From the NCBI RefSeq assembly GCF_000971275.1, contig NZ_LAPV01000009.1:62001-126000 (forward strand): a DNA stretch of 64,000 nucleotides, in the 5' to 3' direction. Positions 2,735 to 16,884 of this stretch are shown here, one piece after another. The stretch's first letter is position 1, and the number at the start of each line of letters is the position of its first letter. Made by a program: the position numbers and the translations under genes. Below the pieces are notes generated by a model, which worked only from the letters and a program-made list of their open reading frames with translations, ran no database searches and had not been told where the DNA came from. The DNA is from Devosia psychrophila. GTDB taxonomy: Bacteria; Pseudomonadota; Alphaproteobacteria; Rhizobiales; Devosiaceae.

Positions 2735-3751
2735 ATGAGTTCACAGACCCGTCTGGCAACGATCAGCCTGAGCCTGCTGGCATTGTTGCTAGCCAGCCTC
2801 GTGCTGGCCGTCATTTTCGGGCCGGCAGACATAGAGCCTGTCGAAGTCTGGCAGACCATCCTCCATCATTTAGGCCTGATCGCAGAAAGCCCCGTCAGCC
2901 GCCTGCGCGATGCCATAATCTGGGAACTGCGCCTGCCCCGCGTTCTTGCTGCGGCAGCCGTCGGCGCCGGCCTCGCCTTGTGCGGCGCCGTGATGCAGGC
3001 GCTGACCCGCAATCCGCTGGCCGATCCTTACCTGCTCGGCCTATCATCAGGGGCGTCGCTCGGCGCCGTGGCCTTCCTGCTGCTCGGCGCTTCCCTTCTC
3101 ATGTCGCTGGGTGCCTTCCTCGGCGCTGGTGCAGCAATGGCCCTAACCCTGCTGGTCACTCAATTGCTTGGCGGCGCCACGCCAACCCGTGCAATCCTGG
3201 CCGGCATTTCTGTCTCGGCCCTCGCCGCCGCTGCCACATCCTTCCTGATTTTCTGGTCCGCTACCGGCGATTCCTACCGCGAAATCCTGAGCTGGCTGAT
3301 GGGCTCGCTCAGCGGCGTAGTCTGGTCCGAGGCACTGCTGGTCATCGGCACACTCGCTCTAACCGGCCTGCCCATCCTCCTCTCCGGCCGTGCCCTCGAC
3401 GCCTTCGCCTTCGGCGACACGGCCGCCGCCACGCTGGGTGTCGATGTCCCGCGCCTTCGCTGGTGGCTACTCGGGGGCACTGCCCTGCTCACCGGCGTAC
3501 TTGTATCCGTCGGCGGCGCCATCGGCTTTGTCGGCCTGATCATCCCCCACGTCGTCCGGCTGATAACCGGTTCGCGCCATCGCGTCTTGCTGCCCATCGC
3601 CATGCTGCTTGGCGCCAGCTTCATGGTCTGGACCGATACCGCCGCCCGCAGCATGTTCGCTCCACGCGAACTGCCAGTCGGCATCATCACCGCCCTGCTC
3701 GGCGCCCCAATCTTCCTCATGGTGCTGCTCCGCTACCGGCGCATCACATGA
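2735..3751 (+). CDS. Permease of a probable F420-0 ABC importer (FecCD/BtuC family)
   Basis: A 338-residue inner-membrane permease with about ten hydrophobic segments, the first at about residues 7-28. The family signature [21 protein letters not shown] near residues 69-88 and NPLADPYLLGLSSGASLG just after it are typical of FecCD/BtuC subunits, as is GGAIGFVGLIIPHVVRL, the coupling region that touches the ATPase. It starts 97 bases after the binding protein, across a REP-like hairpin, and its stop overlaps the ATPase start by 4 bases (ATGA), so the two are translationally coupled. Family alone would say B12/siderophore transport; linkage to cofE and fgd points to F420-0. I recall a matching actinobacterial permease family, TIGR03869. 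Confidence 0.85.
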   Translation: MSSQTRLATISLSLLALLLASLVLAVIFGPADIEPVEVWQTILHHLGLIAESPVSRLRDAIIWELRLPRVLAAAAVGAGLALCGAVMQALTRNPLADPYLLGLSSGASLGAVAFLLLGASLLMSLGAFLGAGAAMALTLLVTQLLGGATPTRAILAGISVSALAAAATSFLIFWSATGDSYREILSWLMGSLSGVVWSEALLVIGTLALTGLPILLSGRALDAFAFGDTAAATLGVDVPRLRWWLLGGTALLTGVLVSVGGAIGFVGLIIPHVVRLITGSRHRVLLPIAMLLGASFMVWTDTAARSMFAPRELPVGIITALLGAPIFLMVLLRYRRIT

Positions 3752-4560
3752 GCGGCCTGATTGTCTCCAACCTCAGTGTGACGCTGGGCGAGAAAACCAT
3801 TCTCAGTGACATTGCACTCACAGCCATGCCCGGGAGCATGACTGGATTAATTGGTCCCAATGGTGCCGGCAAATCCACGCTGATGCGCGCCATGCTCAAG
3901 CTGACGCCGCTGAGTTCTGGCACGATAACCTTCGACGGCACCAACCTGCTCGCCATGCCAGGTCGGGCCCGCGCCCAACTCACCGCCTTTGTTGAACAGA
4001 GCGGCAGCACCGATTCCCGCCTCACTGCCCGGGAAGTCGTCATGCTCGGTCGCATCCCGTTCCAGTCCGTCTGGCAATCCATGCCATCGCCCGCCGACTT
4101 AACCGAAGCCGAAACCGCGCTCGCCGCCGTCAACATGACCGCTTTCGCCGAGCGCCTGTTCCACACTCTCTCCGGCGGCGAACAGCAGCGCATCCTGATC
4201 GCCCGCGCTATCGCCCAGCAACCGCGCCTGCTTATCCTCGACGAGCCGACCAGCCATCTCGACGTCCATGCTCAGCTGATCACGCTCGACCTGCTACGCG
4301 GCCGCGCCCAAGCCGGCGCCACCGTGGTGCTGGCCTTGCACGATCTCAACCTCGCCGCCGCCTTCTGTGACACTCTGGTCGTCCTGCATGATGGGCACTT
4401 GGCGGGACAAGGCACCGCCGAACAAGTGCTCACCCCGGCCCTGCTTCGCACCGTCTACGGCGTCGAGGCTACCCTGCTGCAGCACCCCAAAACTGGACGT
4501 CCCCTGATCGCCTACGACCTGCCGAGCCGATTACGCATGGCCCCACCTAATAGCGATTGA
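3748..4560 (+). CDS. ATP-binding protein of a probable F420-0 ABC importer
   Basis: A 270-residue ABC ATPase of the FecE/BtuD class that powers the importer. Visible motifs are Walker A GPNGAGKST (residues 36-44), the ABC signature LSGGEQQR (from 141), Walker B LLILDEP (from about 161) and the switch His in LALHDLN. The start is the ATG overlapping the permease stop; the reading frame stays open far upstream, but those codons lie under the permease gene and are not part of this protein. With the binding protein and permease it makes a complete importer. I recall TIGR03873 as the equivalent actinobacterial ATPase family. Confidence 0.88.
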   Translation: MSGLIVSNLSVTLGEKTILSDIALTAMPGSMTGLIGPNGAGKSTLMRAMLKLTPLSSGTITFDGTNLLAMPGRARAQLTAFVEQSGSTDSRLTAREVVMLGRIPFQSVWQSMPSPADLTEAETALAAVNMTAFAERLFHTLSGGEQQRILIARAIAQQPRLLILDEPTSHLDVHAQLITLDLLRGRAQAGATVVLALHDLNLAAAFCDTLVVLHDGHLAGQGTAEQVLTPALLRTVYGVEATLLQHPKTGRPLIAYDLPSRLRMAPPNSD

Positions 4561-4594
4561 CAATTTTCCGGCGCCGACCCAAATTTTGATCGTC

Positions 4595-4612
4595 TGGTCA
4601 AAAATTAGACCA
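4595..4612. promoter_or_regulatory. Candidate operator dyad TGGTC-N8-GACCA
   Basis: A 5+5 inverted repeat lies 22-39 bases upstream of the LLM oxidoreductase start at 4634, in the 73-base gap after the importer ATPase. TGGTC/GACCA half-sites are typical of GntR-family repressors, although their usual spacing is shorter. No regulator gene is adjacent. Speculative. Confidence 0.3.
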
Positions 4613-4633
4613 TGGGCATTCGGGGAGGCATTC

Positions 4634-5635
4634 ATGGAATTCGGCATCACCTTCAAAGGCTTCATCGAGGCCGACCGCGCCCGCTATCTGGTTCGTGCCG
4701 CCGAATATGCCGGCTTCTCCTACTGCTGGTTTTACGACTCGCACATTCTATGGCGCGATTGCTATGCCGCCATCGCCATGTGCATGGAACACACCGAACA
4801 CATGCGGTTTGGGCCTTTGGTGACAAACCCGGACGTGCGCGACTGGTCGGTCGCGGCCTCGATCTTCGGCTCGCTGTCCAAACAATCCGGCGGCCGCTTT
4901 GACCTCGCCGTTGGCCGCGGCGACTCGTCGATGCGTGTTATGGGCAAAAAGCCCGCTACCCTCGCTCGCGTCGCTGAATTCATCGCCAAGACCCAGGCCA
5001 TGGTGCGCGGCGAAGAGGTCTCTTATGGCGAGATTCCGGCTGCCGTGAAATTTCCATGGGCCGTCGGCCACGAAATGCCAAGCTGGATCGCCGCCTACGG
5101 CCCGCTTGCCCTCAAGACCGCTGGGGAACATGCCGGTGGCGTCGTGCTGCAACTGGCCGATCCCGGCCTTTGCAAATGGTTCACTGATCAGTGCATCGAC
5201 GCCGGCAAGGCCGCAGGCAAAGACATGTCGAACTTCCGCTCTATGGCCGCCGCTCCCGCCTATTTCGGCGACAAGGCCCGCGCCATCGAGGCCACCAAGT
5301 GGTTCCCCGCCATGGTCGGCAACCACGTCGCCGACATCGTCGAAAAATACGGCGCCGACAGCGACAAGGTTCCGGCCTCACTCACCAGCTACATCGAAAA
5401 GCGCCGCGGCTACGACTATTCCAAACATGGCCAGGCCGATAACCCGTTCCTCGATTTCATCACCCCGGACGTGGTCGAAAACTTTTGCGTGCTCGGCGAA
5501 CCCGAAGACCACATCACCAAGATCCACGCGCTCGAAGAAGCCGGCGTCACCCAGTTCAACATCTATCTCGACAGCGGCGACGAAGAAGAAATCATCGCCA
5601 ACTACGGCCGCCACGTCATCCCGGCATTCCGCTAA
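4634..5635 (+). CDS. LLM-class F420-dependent oxidoreductase, substrate unknown
   Basis: A 333-residue luciferase-like TIM-barrel protein beginning MEFGITFKGF. The ATG at 4634 is chosen because GGGGAGG sits 6 bases upstream; a more distal in-frame ATG at 4586 has no such site. WFYDSHILWRDCYAA near the N-terminus and RFDLAVGRGDSSMRVMG further on fit a subgroup that I recall as F420-dependent (the TIGR03842 type). It follows the F420-0 importer after 73 bases and is probably a consumer of the F420H2 made by Fgd. Flavin rather than F420 as cofactor cannot be excluded from sequence alone. Confidence 0.78.
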   Translation: MEFGITFKGFIEADRARYLVRAAEYAGFSYCWFYDSHILWRDCYAAIAMCMEHTEHMRFGPLVTNPDVRDWSVAASIFGSLSKQSGGRFDLAVGRGDSSMRVMGKKPATLARVAEFIAKTQAMVRGEEVSYGEIPAAVKFPWAVGHEMPSWIAAYGPLALKTAGEHAGGVVLQLADPGLCKWFTDQCIDAGKAAGKDMSNFRSMAAAPAYFGDKARAIEATKWFPAMVGNHVADIVEKYGADSDKVPASLTSYIEKRRGYDYSKHGQADNPFLDFITPDVVENFCVLGEPEDHITKIHALEEAGVTQFNIYLDSGDEEEIIANYGRHVIPAFR

Positions 5636-11840: not shown

Positions 11841-12875
11841 CTAGTTGAGCTTTATGTCATTCAATCCGAGTTCGCGAGCCAGATCGAGAACATCAATGCG
11901 TGATACGCCGGGCTTGAGATAGGTCATGCGAAGACGGGTTGCGTCGCGGCCGCCGACAGTGACCGGCTCCTCTGCCACCGACCCGAGGATTGCGAACTGC
12001 TCGGTCAGGGCTATCGCATTGTCCTGATTGGAAAAAGTACCAAGCGTAAGGTCGATGGTTCGAGCGTCGGCATCCATCGACTGCACCCAGTCAGCCAGCG
12101 CGGGGGACTGTGTGCCCATGGCGTTAACGGCAGCGAAGGCTGTGCCTATATTGGCGTCAGCCTGCTTTGGACCTTCGGCATAAGAGAACATGCCACCAAA
12201 GAAATTGCCGGCGATATCGGCCAGGCTATTGGTGCCGTCGGCATAGGCGGTGCGCGTGCTGCCGCCGAAATCGGCTGGGCCGGAGTAGCTGGCCACCAGC
12301 CTGCGGGTGTCGTCGCCTTCGAGTGGCGCCGGGCCGACATATTCGGCTTTTATTTGTGTATGACCGTTGTTTACGTAGCCAAGCATTTCTGCGGCGCGGT
12401 GTGACAGATCCATGATGCGACCAGGCATATAAGGCCCGCGATCATTGACCCGCACGACCACCGAGCGGCCATTGGCTTCGTTGGTAACGCGGACATAGGA
12501 CGGCAGCGGTAGAGTTGGGTGGGCGCCGGTGATGGCGTTGGCCGAGAAGATTTCGCCGTTGGCGGTGCGGCGGCCATGGAAGTCGGAGCCGTACCAGGAT
12601 GCGTCGCCGGTTGCGACGTAGTTGGGTTGTTCGGCTGGGGTGTAGACGTTACCCCGCACGGTATAGGGTTTGCCGACCTGATAGCGGCCGCCGCCCTTGG
12701 GTGGATTGGGATTGTTGGTGACGCGGGGCGACACCCCTACCCCATATTCGGATGAGCTGAAGGCGCCGCGCTTTAGGGTTGCGCCGAGACCACCGCCGCC
12801 ACAGGCAGCGATTATCGGGGCAATCAGGGTTGCCAGAGCGACAAGGCGGATGGCGTTACGCCAAGGGGTCGTCAT
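11841..12875 (-). CDS. rlpA: RlpA-family septal ring lipoprotein with SPOR-like C-terminus
   Basis: A 344-residue lipoprotein of the RlpA family, which contains lytic transglycosylases that act on peptidoglycan at division sites. The start at 12875 (MTTPWRNAIRL) gives a lipoprotein signal ending in Ala-Ala-Cys25; 22 open codons further upstream are not needed. The double-psi beta-barrel domain includes ASWYGSDFHGRRTANGE, VRVNDRGPYMPGRIMDLS and the catalytic Asp. The last 75 residues (from about TIDLTLGTFSNQDNA) look like a SPOR peptidoglycan-binding domain. It heads the rlpA-dac-tmk-holB-metG-tatD run. Confidence 0.9.
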   Translation of the reverse strand: MTTPWRNAIRLVALATLIAPIIAACGGGGLGATLKRGAFSSSEYGVGVSPRVTNNPNPPKGGGRYQVGKPYTVRGNVYTPAEQPNYVATGDASWYGSDFHGRRTANGEIFSANAITGAHPTLPLPSYVRVTNEANGRSVVVRVNDRGPYMPGRIMDLSHRAAEMLGYVNNGHTQIKAEYVGPAPLEGDDTRRLVASYSGPADFGGSTRTAYADGTNSLADIAGNFFGGMFSYAEGPKQADANIGTAFAAVNAMGTQSPALADWVQSMDADARTIDLTLGTFSNQDNAIALTEQFAILGSVAEEPVTVGGRDATRLRMTYLKPGVSRIDVLDLARELGLNDIKLN

Positions 12876-13076
12876 CACGGTCAAGCAAACTCTTACGCTG
12901 GTCACACTACGAGCGTAGATCATAACGCGATCAGGGAACACTCGCGCCTACAGAACCGATTTCTGGTTTCAGCGAGGTTAAAGACAACAGACTGTTAGCA
13001 CTGAGAGTAGCATTTGAAGCCAATAGGTGACGGATCGGTGGACAAACTCTCCCACTCCCGGCCTTGCATCGAACAG

Positions 13077-13098
13077 GATATAAAGATATCTTTATATC
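13077..13098. promoter_or_regulatory. Perfect 22-bp palindrome upstream of metH (candidate SahR-type operator)
   Basis: Half-site GATATAAAGAT is followed directly by its exact reverse complement, 28 bases before the metH start. AT-rich palindromes of this form upstream of methionine-cycle genes are what ArsR-family SahR regulators are reported to bind in Proteobacteria. The regulator gene is not in the window, so the assignment is inference; the symmetry itself is exact. Confidence 0.6.
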
Positions 13099-13125
13099 TT
13101 CTGGAAATAGCGAACTTGCAGGTAG

Positions 13126-16884
<3,759 letters not shown>

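Follow-up and report, generated by a model that had tools for sequence, protein, structure and literature searches.

SahR is a regulator of the ArsR family that responds to S-adenosylhomocysteine (SAH) and controls genes of the S-adenosylmethionine (SAM) cycle (Leyn et al. 2014, PMC4239095). In the sections of that paper drawn on here its core regulon is given as sahR, ahcY, metH, metH2, metF and metK, to which some genomes add bhmT, metE and metE2; metE2 is only an occasional target, and PF08908-metE2 is assigned to MetR. For Ensifer aridi LMR001 the part of the report used here describes binding of SahR as dependent on SAH (PMC8877191). We discuss here a palindrome that lies before metH, the gene for cobalamin-dependent methionine synthase, in a stretch of 64,000 nucleotides of Devosia psychrophila (contig NZ_LAPV01000009.1, positions 62,001 to 126,000 of the forward strand), which we call the window. 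This palindrome is very probably the operator of a SahR encoded elsewhere in the genome, a repressor of the ArsR family whose C-terminal domain resembles a class-I methyltransferase. No report of SahR in Devosia was found by title or start of abstract among open-licence papers in PubMed Central.

The palindrome, GATATAAAGATATCTTTATATC, occupies positions 13077..13098 of the window and, as a perfect 22-bp dyad (11+11) and putative operator, is assigned to neither strand. The preliminary description of this DNA had given the same letters and symmetry, and had remarked that the region is AT-rich in GC-rich DNA; both are confirmed, with 47% G+C at 12881-13131 against 61.2% for the whole window. 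It is the sole perfect palindrome of at least 18 bp in the 64 kb searched. In first-order Markov simulations of the window 0.035 perfect palindromes of at least 22 bp are expected per 64 kb, and the claim that such a dyad is very unlikely by chance therefore holds for one window but not for a genome, as symmetry alone leads one to expect 2-3 palindromes of at least that length in 4.5 Mb. It is recurrence that excludes a chance palindrome. With up to 3 mismatches allowed, the 22-mer is found at exactly four places in the 4.52-Mb genome and the reversed control at none, where about 0.0006 places are expected in 4.5 Mb (a figure that assumes window-like base composition only), and we conclude from these four copies that the palindrome is not random.

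All four sites serve genes of the SAM cycle and the putative regulator, with the targets identified by Pfam and NCBIfam. Site 1 (C229:75077), with no mismatches, is the window's own palindrome before metH. Site 2 (C2:43668) has 1 mismatch and lies 12 bp ahead of sahR, which is followed by metF, so that metF shares the site of sahR. Sites 3 (C61:1891) and 4 (C75:46141) have 3 mismatches each and stand before ahcY and metK respectively. A genome scan had been proposed in the preliminary description, with hits expected before ahcY, metF, bhmT-like or methionine-transport genes and next to an ArsR gene; sites do indeed stand before ahcY, before metK and before an ArsR-type gene that has metF behind it, whereas methionine-transport genes and bhmT are not among the four. 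A looser search with the 16-base core gave one further place, C229:39573, and the reversed core matched 2 places. This further place falls within a coding sequence whose product, named by reading only, looks like a pyruvate dehydrogenase subunit, and we set it aside as chance.

The putative sahR gene (C2:43702-44652) encodes 316 amino acids, and metF begins 12 bases after its stop codon. Pfam places an ArsR-type helix-turn-helix (HTH_5) at residues 18-61 and class-I methyltransferase matches (Methyltransf_31/11/25) at about residues 154-258. When the D. psychrophila protein is aligned with 32 others that are 47-92% identical to it, two stretches are invariant in 33/33, namely the recognition-helix region (QSQPRxSRHL) and the motif that binds SAM/SAH (DxGTGTGR). 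An AlphaFold2 model (mean predicted local distance difference test score, pLDDT, 78.9; predicted template modelling score, pTM, 0.68) shows a winged-helix domain joined through a long helix to a methyltransferase-like domain, and the 50 best matches in the PDB found with Foldseek are methyltransferase-type enzymes with an extra N-terminal domain, several of them solved with SAH. The predicted fold thus supports the SahR domain make-up, not a ligand. We identify the protein as the probable SahR because the target set, the length and symmetry of the site and the architecture of the regulator all match SahR; the orthologues compared were those of the order.

By analogy with the published SahR work, a SahR dimer would bind the palindrome, which would overlap or abut the metH promoter, and so block transcription; binding as a dimer and overlap with a promoter are inferred from the DNA itself. 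The original SahR description, by Novichkov et al. in 2014, reportedly has SAH releasing the protein from DNA. If the same applies in Devosia, SAH on accumulating would bind the methyltransferase-like domain and SahR would leave the operator, and metH, metF, ahcY, metK and sahR itself would be induced. Such induction would clear SAH, remethylate homocysteine and restore methionine and SAM.

It is conceivable that SahR binds the palindrome but that the effector or the sign of the response differs from the published case, with for example SAM as a co-repressor, as discussed for the related SamR. A fold of the methyltransferase type could accommodate either SAM or SAH, and in the portion of PMC4239095 drawn on here the response of SamR to SAM is left open. 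However, the presence of ahcY, the enzyme that clears SAH, in the regulon agrees with SAH as the signal, and in the SamR regulons described there metK is the only SAM-cycle gene of this type. We consider a different effector or sign unlikely, and the published response to SAH the better choice.

The site is well conserved in the family. Our sample comprised 101 genomes of Devosiaceae, which named matches place as Devosia and its neighbours. At least one site is present in 101/101 of them, and the reversed control gave none in any. In the 30 best-scoring sahR loci of the sample a site with up to 3 mismatches stands before sahR in every case. There were also 80 named sahR loci, a set that overlaps with these 30 in species: metF was matched in all 80, and for the 77 that were usable (3 had no upstream DNA) a site is present in 73 at up to 3 mismatches and in all 77 at up to 4. 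For metH, 82 of 83 strong matches were examined (G077, with 261 bases upstream, was left out) and 73 of the 82 have a site at up to 3 mismatches, 75 at up to 4; by comparison, 274 pieces of 460 bases taken from other parts of the window match at best with 8-13 mismatches. For ahcY and metK the search reached up to 1500 bases upstream in 30 genomes, 2 of which gave no metK match. The site is found before ahcY in 23, 29 and 30 of 30 genomes at up to 3, 4 and 5 mismatches, and before metK in 13, 24 and 28 of 28 at the same thresholds. The distance from site to coding match is 9-114 bp at sahR and 32-196 bp at metH. In 14 genomes of the sample the sole match to the N-terminal part of MetH is only distantly similar, at 31-34% identity, with an open frame of 333-368 amino acids (the one such protein scanned is BhmT-like), and there is a site before that gene in 14/14. 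Conservation before metH in relatives, which the preliminary description had proposed as a check, is thus borne out by 75/82 leaders. The contrary outcome that it had envisaged, with no further sites near methionine-cycle genes and no conservation before metH, is excluded.

Regulator and site also occur together across the order. In a sample of 199 genomes, 7 of them from Devosiaceae, a SahR orthologue was called at a best E value of 1e-30 or lower, a threshold that we set ourselves. At least one site (up to 3 mismatches) is present in 161/181 genomes with SahR and in 1/18 without it, and that one, G220, is an assembly 56% complete. There appear to have been losses within several families: in genus g69 of family f4, for example, 3 genomes lack SahR and site alike, and the 2 with SahR have one site each. 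The preliminary description had named SahR-type ArsR regulators as the best candidates for the metH palindrome, and the target set, the position of sahR beside its own site, the conservation and the co-occurrence together support that proposal.

There are also observations that weigh against it. Fisher's exact test for the co-occurrence gives p = 1.5e-13, a value that overstates the evidence as the genomes share ancestry and are not independent; the reversed control gave a match in 1/199 genomes of the order (G150); and 20/181 genomes with SahR have no site at up to 3 mismatches, in which the motif may have drifted. Within Devosiaceae, 7/82 metH leaders have no site, all of them from Devosia in which the first domain of metH stands apart from the rest. 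A 2.0-Mb Devosia genome, G094, has a perfect palindrome before a broken sahR (L259, G094:C74:54500-57059). The NCBIfam label for the D. psychrophila protein is ArsR/SmtB-type regulator only, and the whole-chain TM-scores of the 50 best structural matches are low, at 0.38-0.49 by query length. A consensus scan of 12900-13200 gave no consensus sigma-70 promoter. Finally, five of the 101 Devosiaceae genomes (G007, G008, G027, G048 and G065; assemblies 60-90% complete) have sites although none of them gave a full match to SahR.

With regard to G094 itself, the broken sahR matches in three pieces with stops within two of them, and the genome also keeps sites before ahcY and metH, that at metH with 8/11 dyad pairs.

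These five genomes, and the presence of 14 HTH_5 (ArsR-type) matches in the D. psychrophila genome might suggest that a different dimeric regulator binds the palindrome, with sahR as just another target. Against this, SahR is itself the ArsR gene directly behind the site in all 30 of the best-scoring loci and, at up to 4 mismatches, in all 77 named ones, the site is nearly absent from genomes of the order that lack SahR, and the five exceptions are incomplete assemblies. We regard a different regulator as very improbable, and take SahR to be the protein that binds.

The metH gene (13132..16884, + strand) encodes 1250 amino acids when counted from the conserved ATG at 13132. It is full-length, with scores of 2122.8 bits for NCBIfam NF007024 and 1722.5 bits for TIGR02082, and has the Pfam domains S-methyl_trans, Pterin_bind, B12-binding_2, B12-binding and Met_synt_B12. 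In 12/14 close relatives the in-frame ATG at 13132 is conserved as ATGAGCC, with GAGGT ahead of the start in 11/14, whereas the ATG at 13126, which is 27 bases past the palindrome, is retained in 4/14 only. As the former is the better conserved, the start of metH is probably better set at 13132, 6 bases inside 13126, and the gap between palindrome and start is then 33 bases. The palindrome is thus just ahead of metH as was first described, but at a distance that is more likely 33 than 28 bases. The sequence AGGT at 13120..13123 (+ strand), 8 bases before this ATG, is a probable ribosome-binding site in view of the conserved GAGGT.

Read by eye, the leader has a possible -35 element TTGCAT at 13064..13069 and, after a 17-base spacer, a possible -10 element TATCTT at 13087..13092 (both + strand), the latter within the palindrome. 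Of 30 metH leaders, at least 70% have the TTG at this spacing from the operator. The metH operator could thus cover the -10 element of a promoter TTGCAT-N17-TATCTT. In some sahR leaders (for example those of L056, L072 and L085) CTRGAC-N16/17-TATAAA, also read by eye, would likewise place the -10 element inside the operator.

A perfect palindrome, if transcribed, can fold as a hairpin, but that it is an RNA hairpin or terminator of the metH leader, or mere chance, is hardly credible: there is no intrinsic terminator in 12900-13200 and no Rfam match at gathering threshold in the entire 64-kb window, the same palindrome stands before unrelated genes at the widely varying distances given above, its letters are conserved and not the pairing alone, and its recurrence is far above the chance expectation. 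The Rfam result also rules out a riboswitch of the SAM-II, SAM/SAH or cobalamin type in the metH leader, as no covariance model matched, and agrees with the earlier statement that neither SAM-II nor cobalamin riboswitch is apparent there.

On the other side of the palindrome, and divergent from metH, is a gene (11841-12877, - strand) which we take to encode an RlpA-like lipoprotein. About 200 bp separate its likely start from the palindrome; co-regulation with metH is possible but unsupported. At a sahR locus, the sahR-metF pair is followed, about 2 kb downstream, by an RNase P RNA (class A) gene (L019:6485-6876, + strand).

In the seven Devosia genomes without a site before metH (G049, G064, G070, G087, G088, G092 and G098) the first domain of metH has its own frame, 347-384 amino acids long. 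A separate first domain does not alone mean loss of the site, as 7 other genomes of the family with such frames, of 348-362 amino acids, keep it at up to 4 mismatches. The second part of metH was read in one of the seven, G087. At L256:406-4133 (- strand) metH is split into a homocysteine-methyltransferase part of 342 amino acids and a remainder of 900, the frames overlapping by four bases, and no SahR-type site with up to 5 mismatches is present in the 6 kb covered.

The cobalamin-independent enzyme gene metE is present in 8/40 Devosia genomes; in all 8 there is a site 386-455 bp upstream, and in all 8 a cobalamin riboswitch lies between the site and metE. At L257, for example, the site is at 2718-2739, the riboswitch at 2767-2959 and metE at 3126-5375, and the other loci are L321-L327. 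Three of the seven Devosia genomes with split metH have metE. The other four have a site and a cobalamin riboswitch before mesX, which is followed by a gene like those for core methionine synthases (L342-L345; L331, L333, L335 and L337); it was their sites that led to these four genomes, which therefore give no rate, and one of the four synthases was scanned. The two genes correspond to the oxygen-dependent pair MesX/MesD described in PMC7857596, a text that contains neither the word riboswitch nor SahR. A related case, again from the part of the paper used, is the NOR gate of SAM-I and adenosylcobalamin (AdoCbl) riboswitches at metE of Bacillus clausii (PMC9481103). For a SahR site in tandem with a cobalamin riboswitch nothing was found by title or start of abstract among open-licence papers in PubMed Central.

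We think it somewhat probable that in Devosia the SahR operator tracks whichever methionine synthase the genome depends on, and that where this enzyme is cobalamin-independent the operator and a cobalamin riboswitch are stacked to form a two-input gate. If so, the gate would read "SAH high AND B12 absent", with one protein sensor and one RNA sensor. The genomes with full metH, split metH, a BhmT-like protein, metE or mesX-mesD, and that with broken sahR, form a natural series for following the movement of an operator between enzymes that do the same job.

With regard to other systems that deal with the same metabolites, SAH, SAM-II and SAM/SAH riboswitches occur in related bacteria, but these are RNA elements and the window has none. 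SamR of the Xanthomonadales is a distant homologue of SahR that is found, as here, at methionine synthase genes. It differs from SahR, in the account given in the sections of PMC4239095 used here, in having a 24-bp motif that shares only ATC-10nt-GAT with the gammaproteobacterial SahR motif, and a larger regulon with no SAM-cycle genes except metK. In Ensifer aridi LMR001, of another genus than Devosia, expression of sahR is reported in the part of PMC8877191 drawn on to be highest in the sahR deletion, which supports autorepression.

The closest comparison is with the SahR regulon of Alphaproteobacteria and Rhizobiales as set out in the same sections of PMC4239095, which has in common with Devosia an ArsR regulator, a palindromic operator of about 20 bp and the core targets. 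The likeness to the published Rhizobiales motif rests on length, symmetry and targets and not on letters. The Devosia targets are most of the published core regulon, and nothing essential was found to be different from what those sections describe. The general picture of how bacteria control the methionine and SAM pathway is unchanged, but a regulator and an operator, together with a probable signal, can now be assigned to metH in Devosia, and control of the methionine cycle there becomes predictable from sequence. The metH palindrome of D. psychrophila is thus a sound but ordinary example of SahR regulation as already described.
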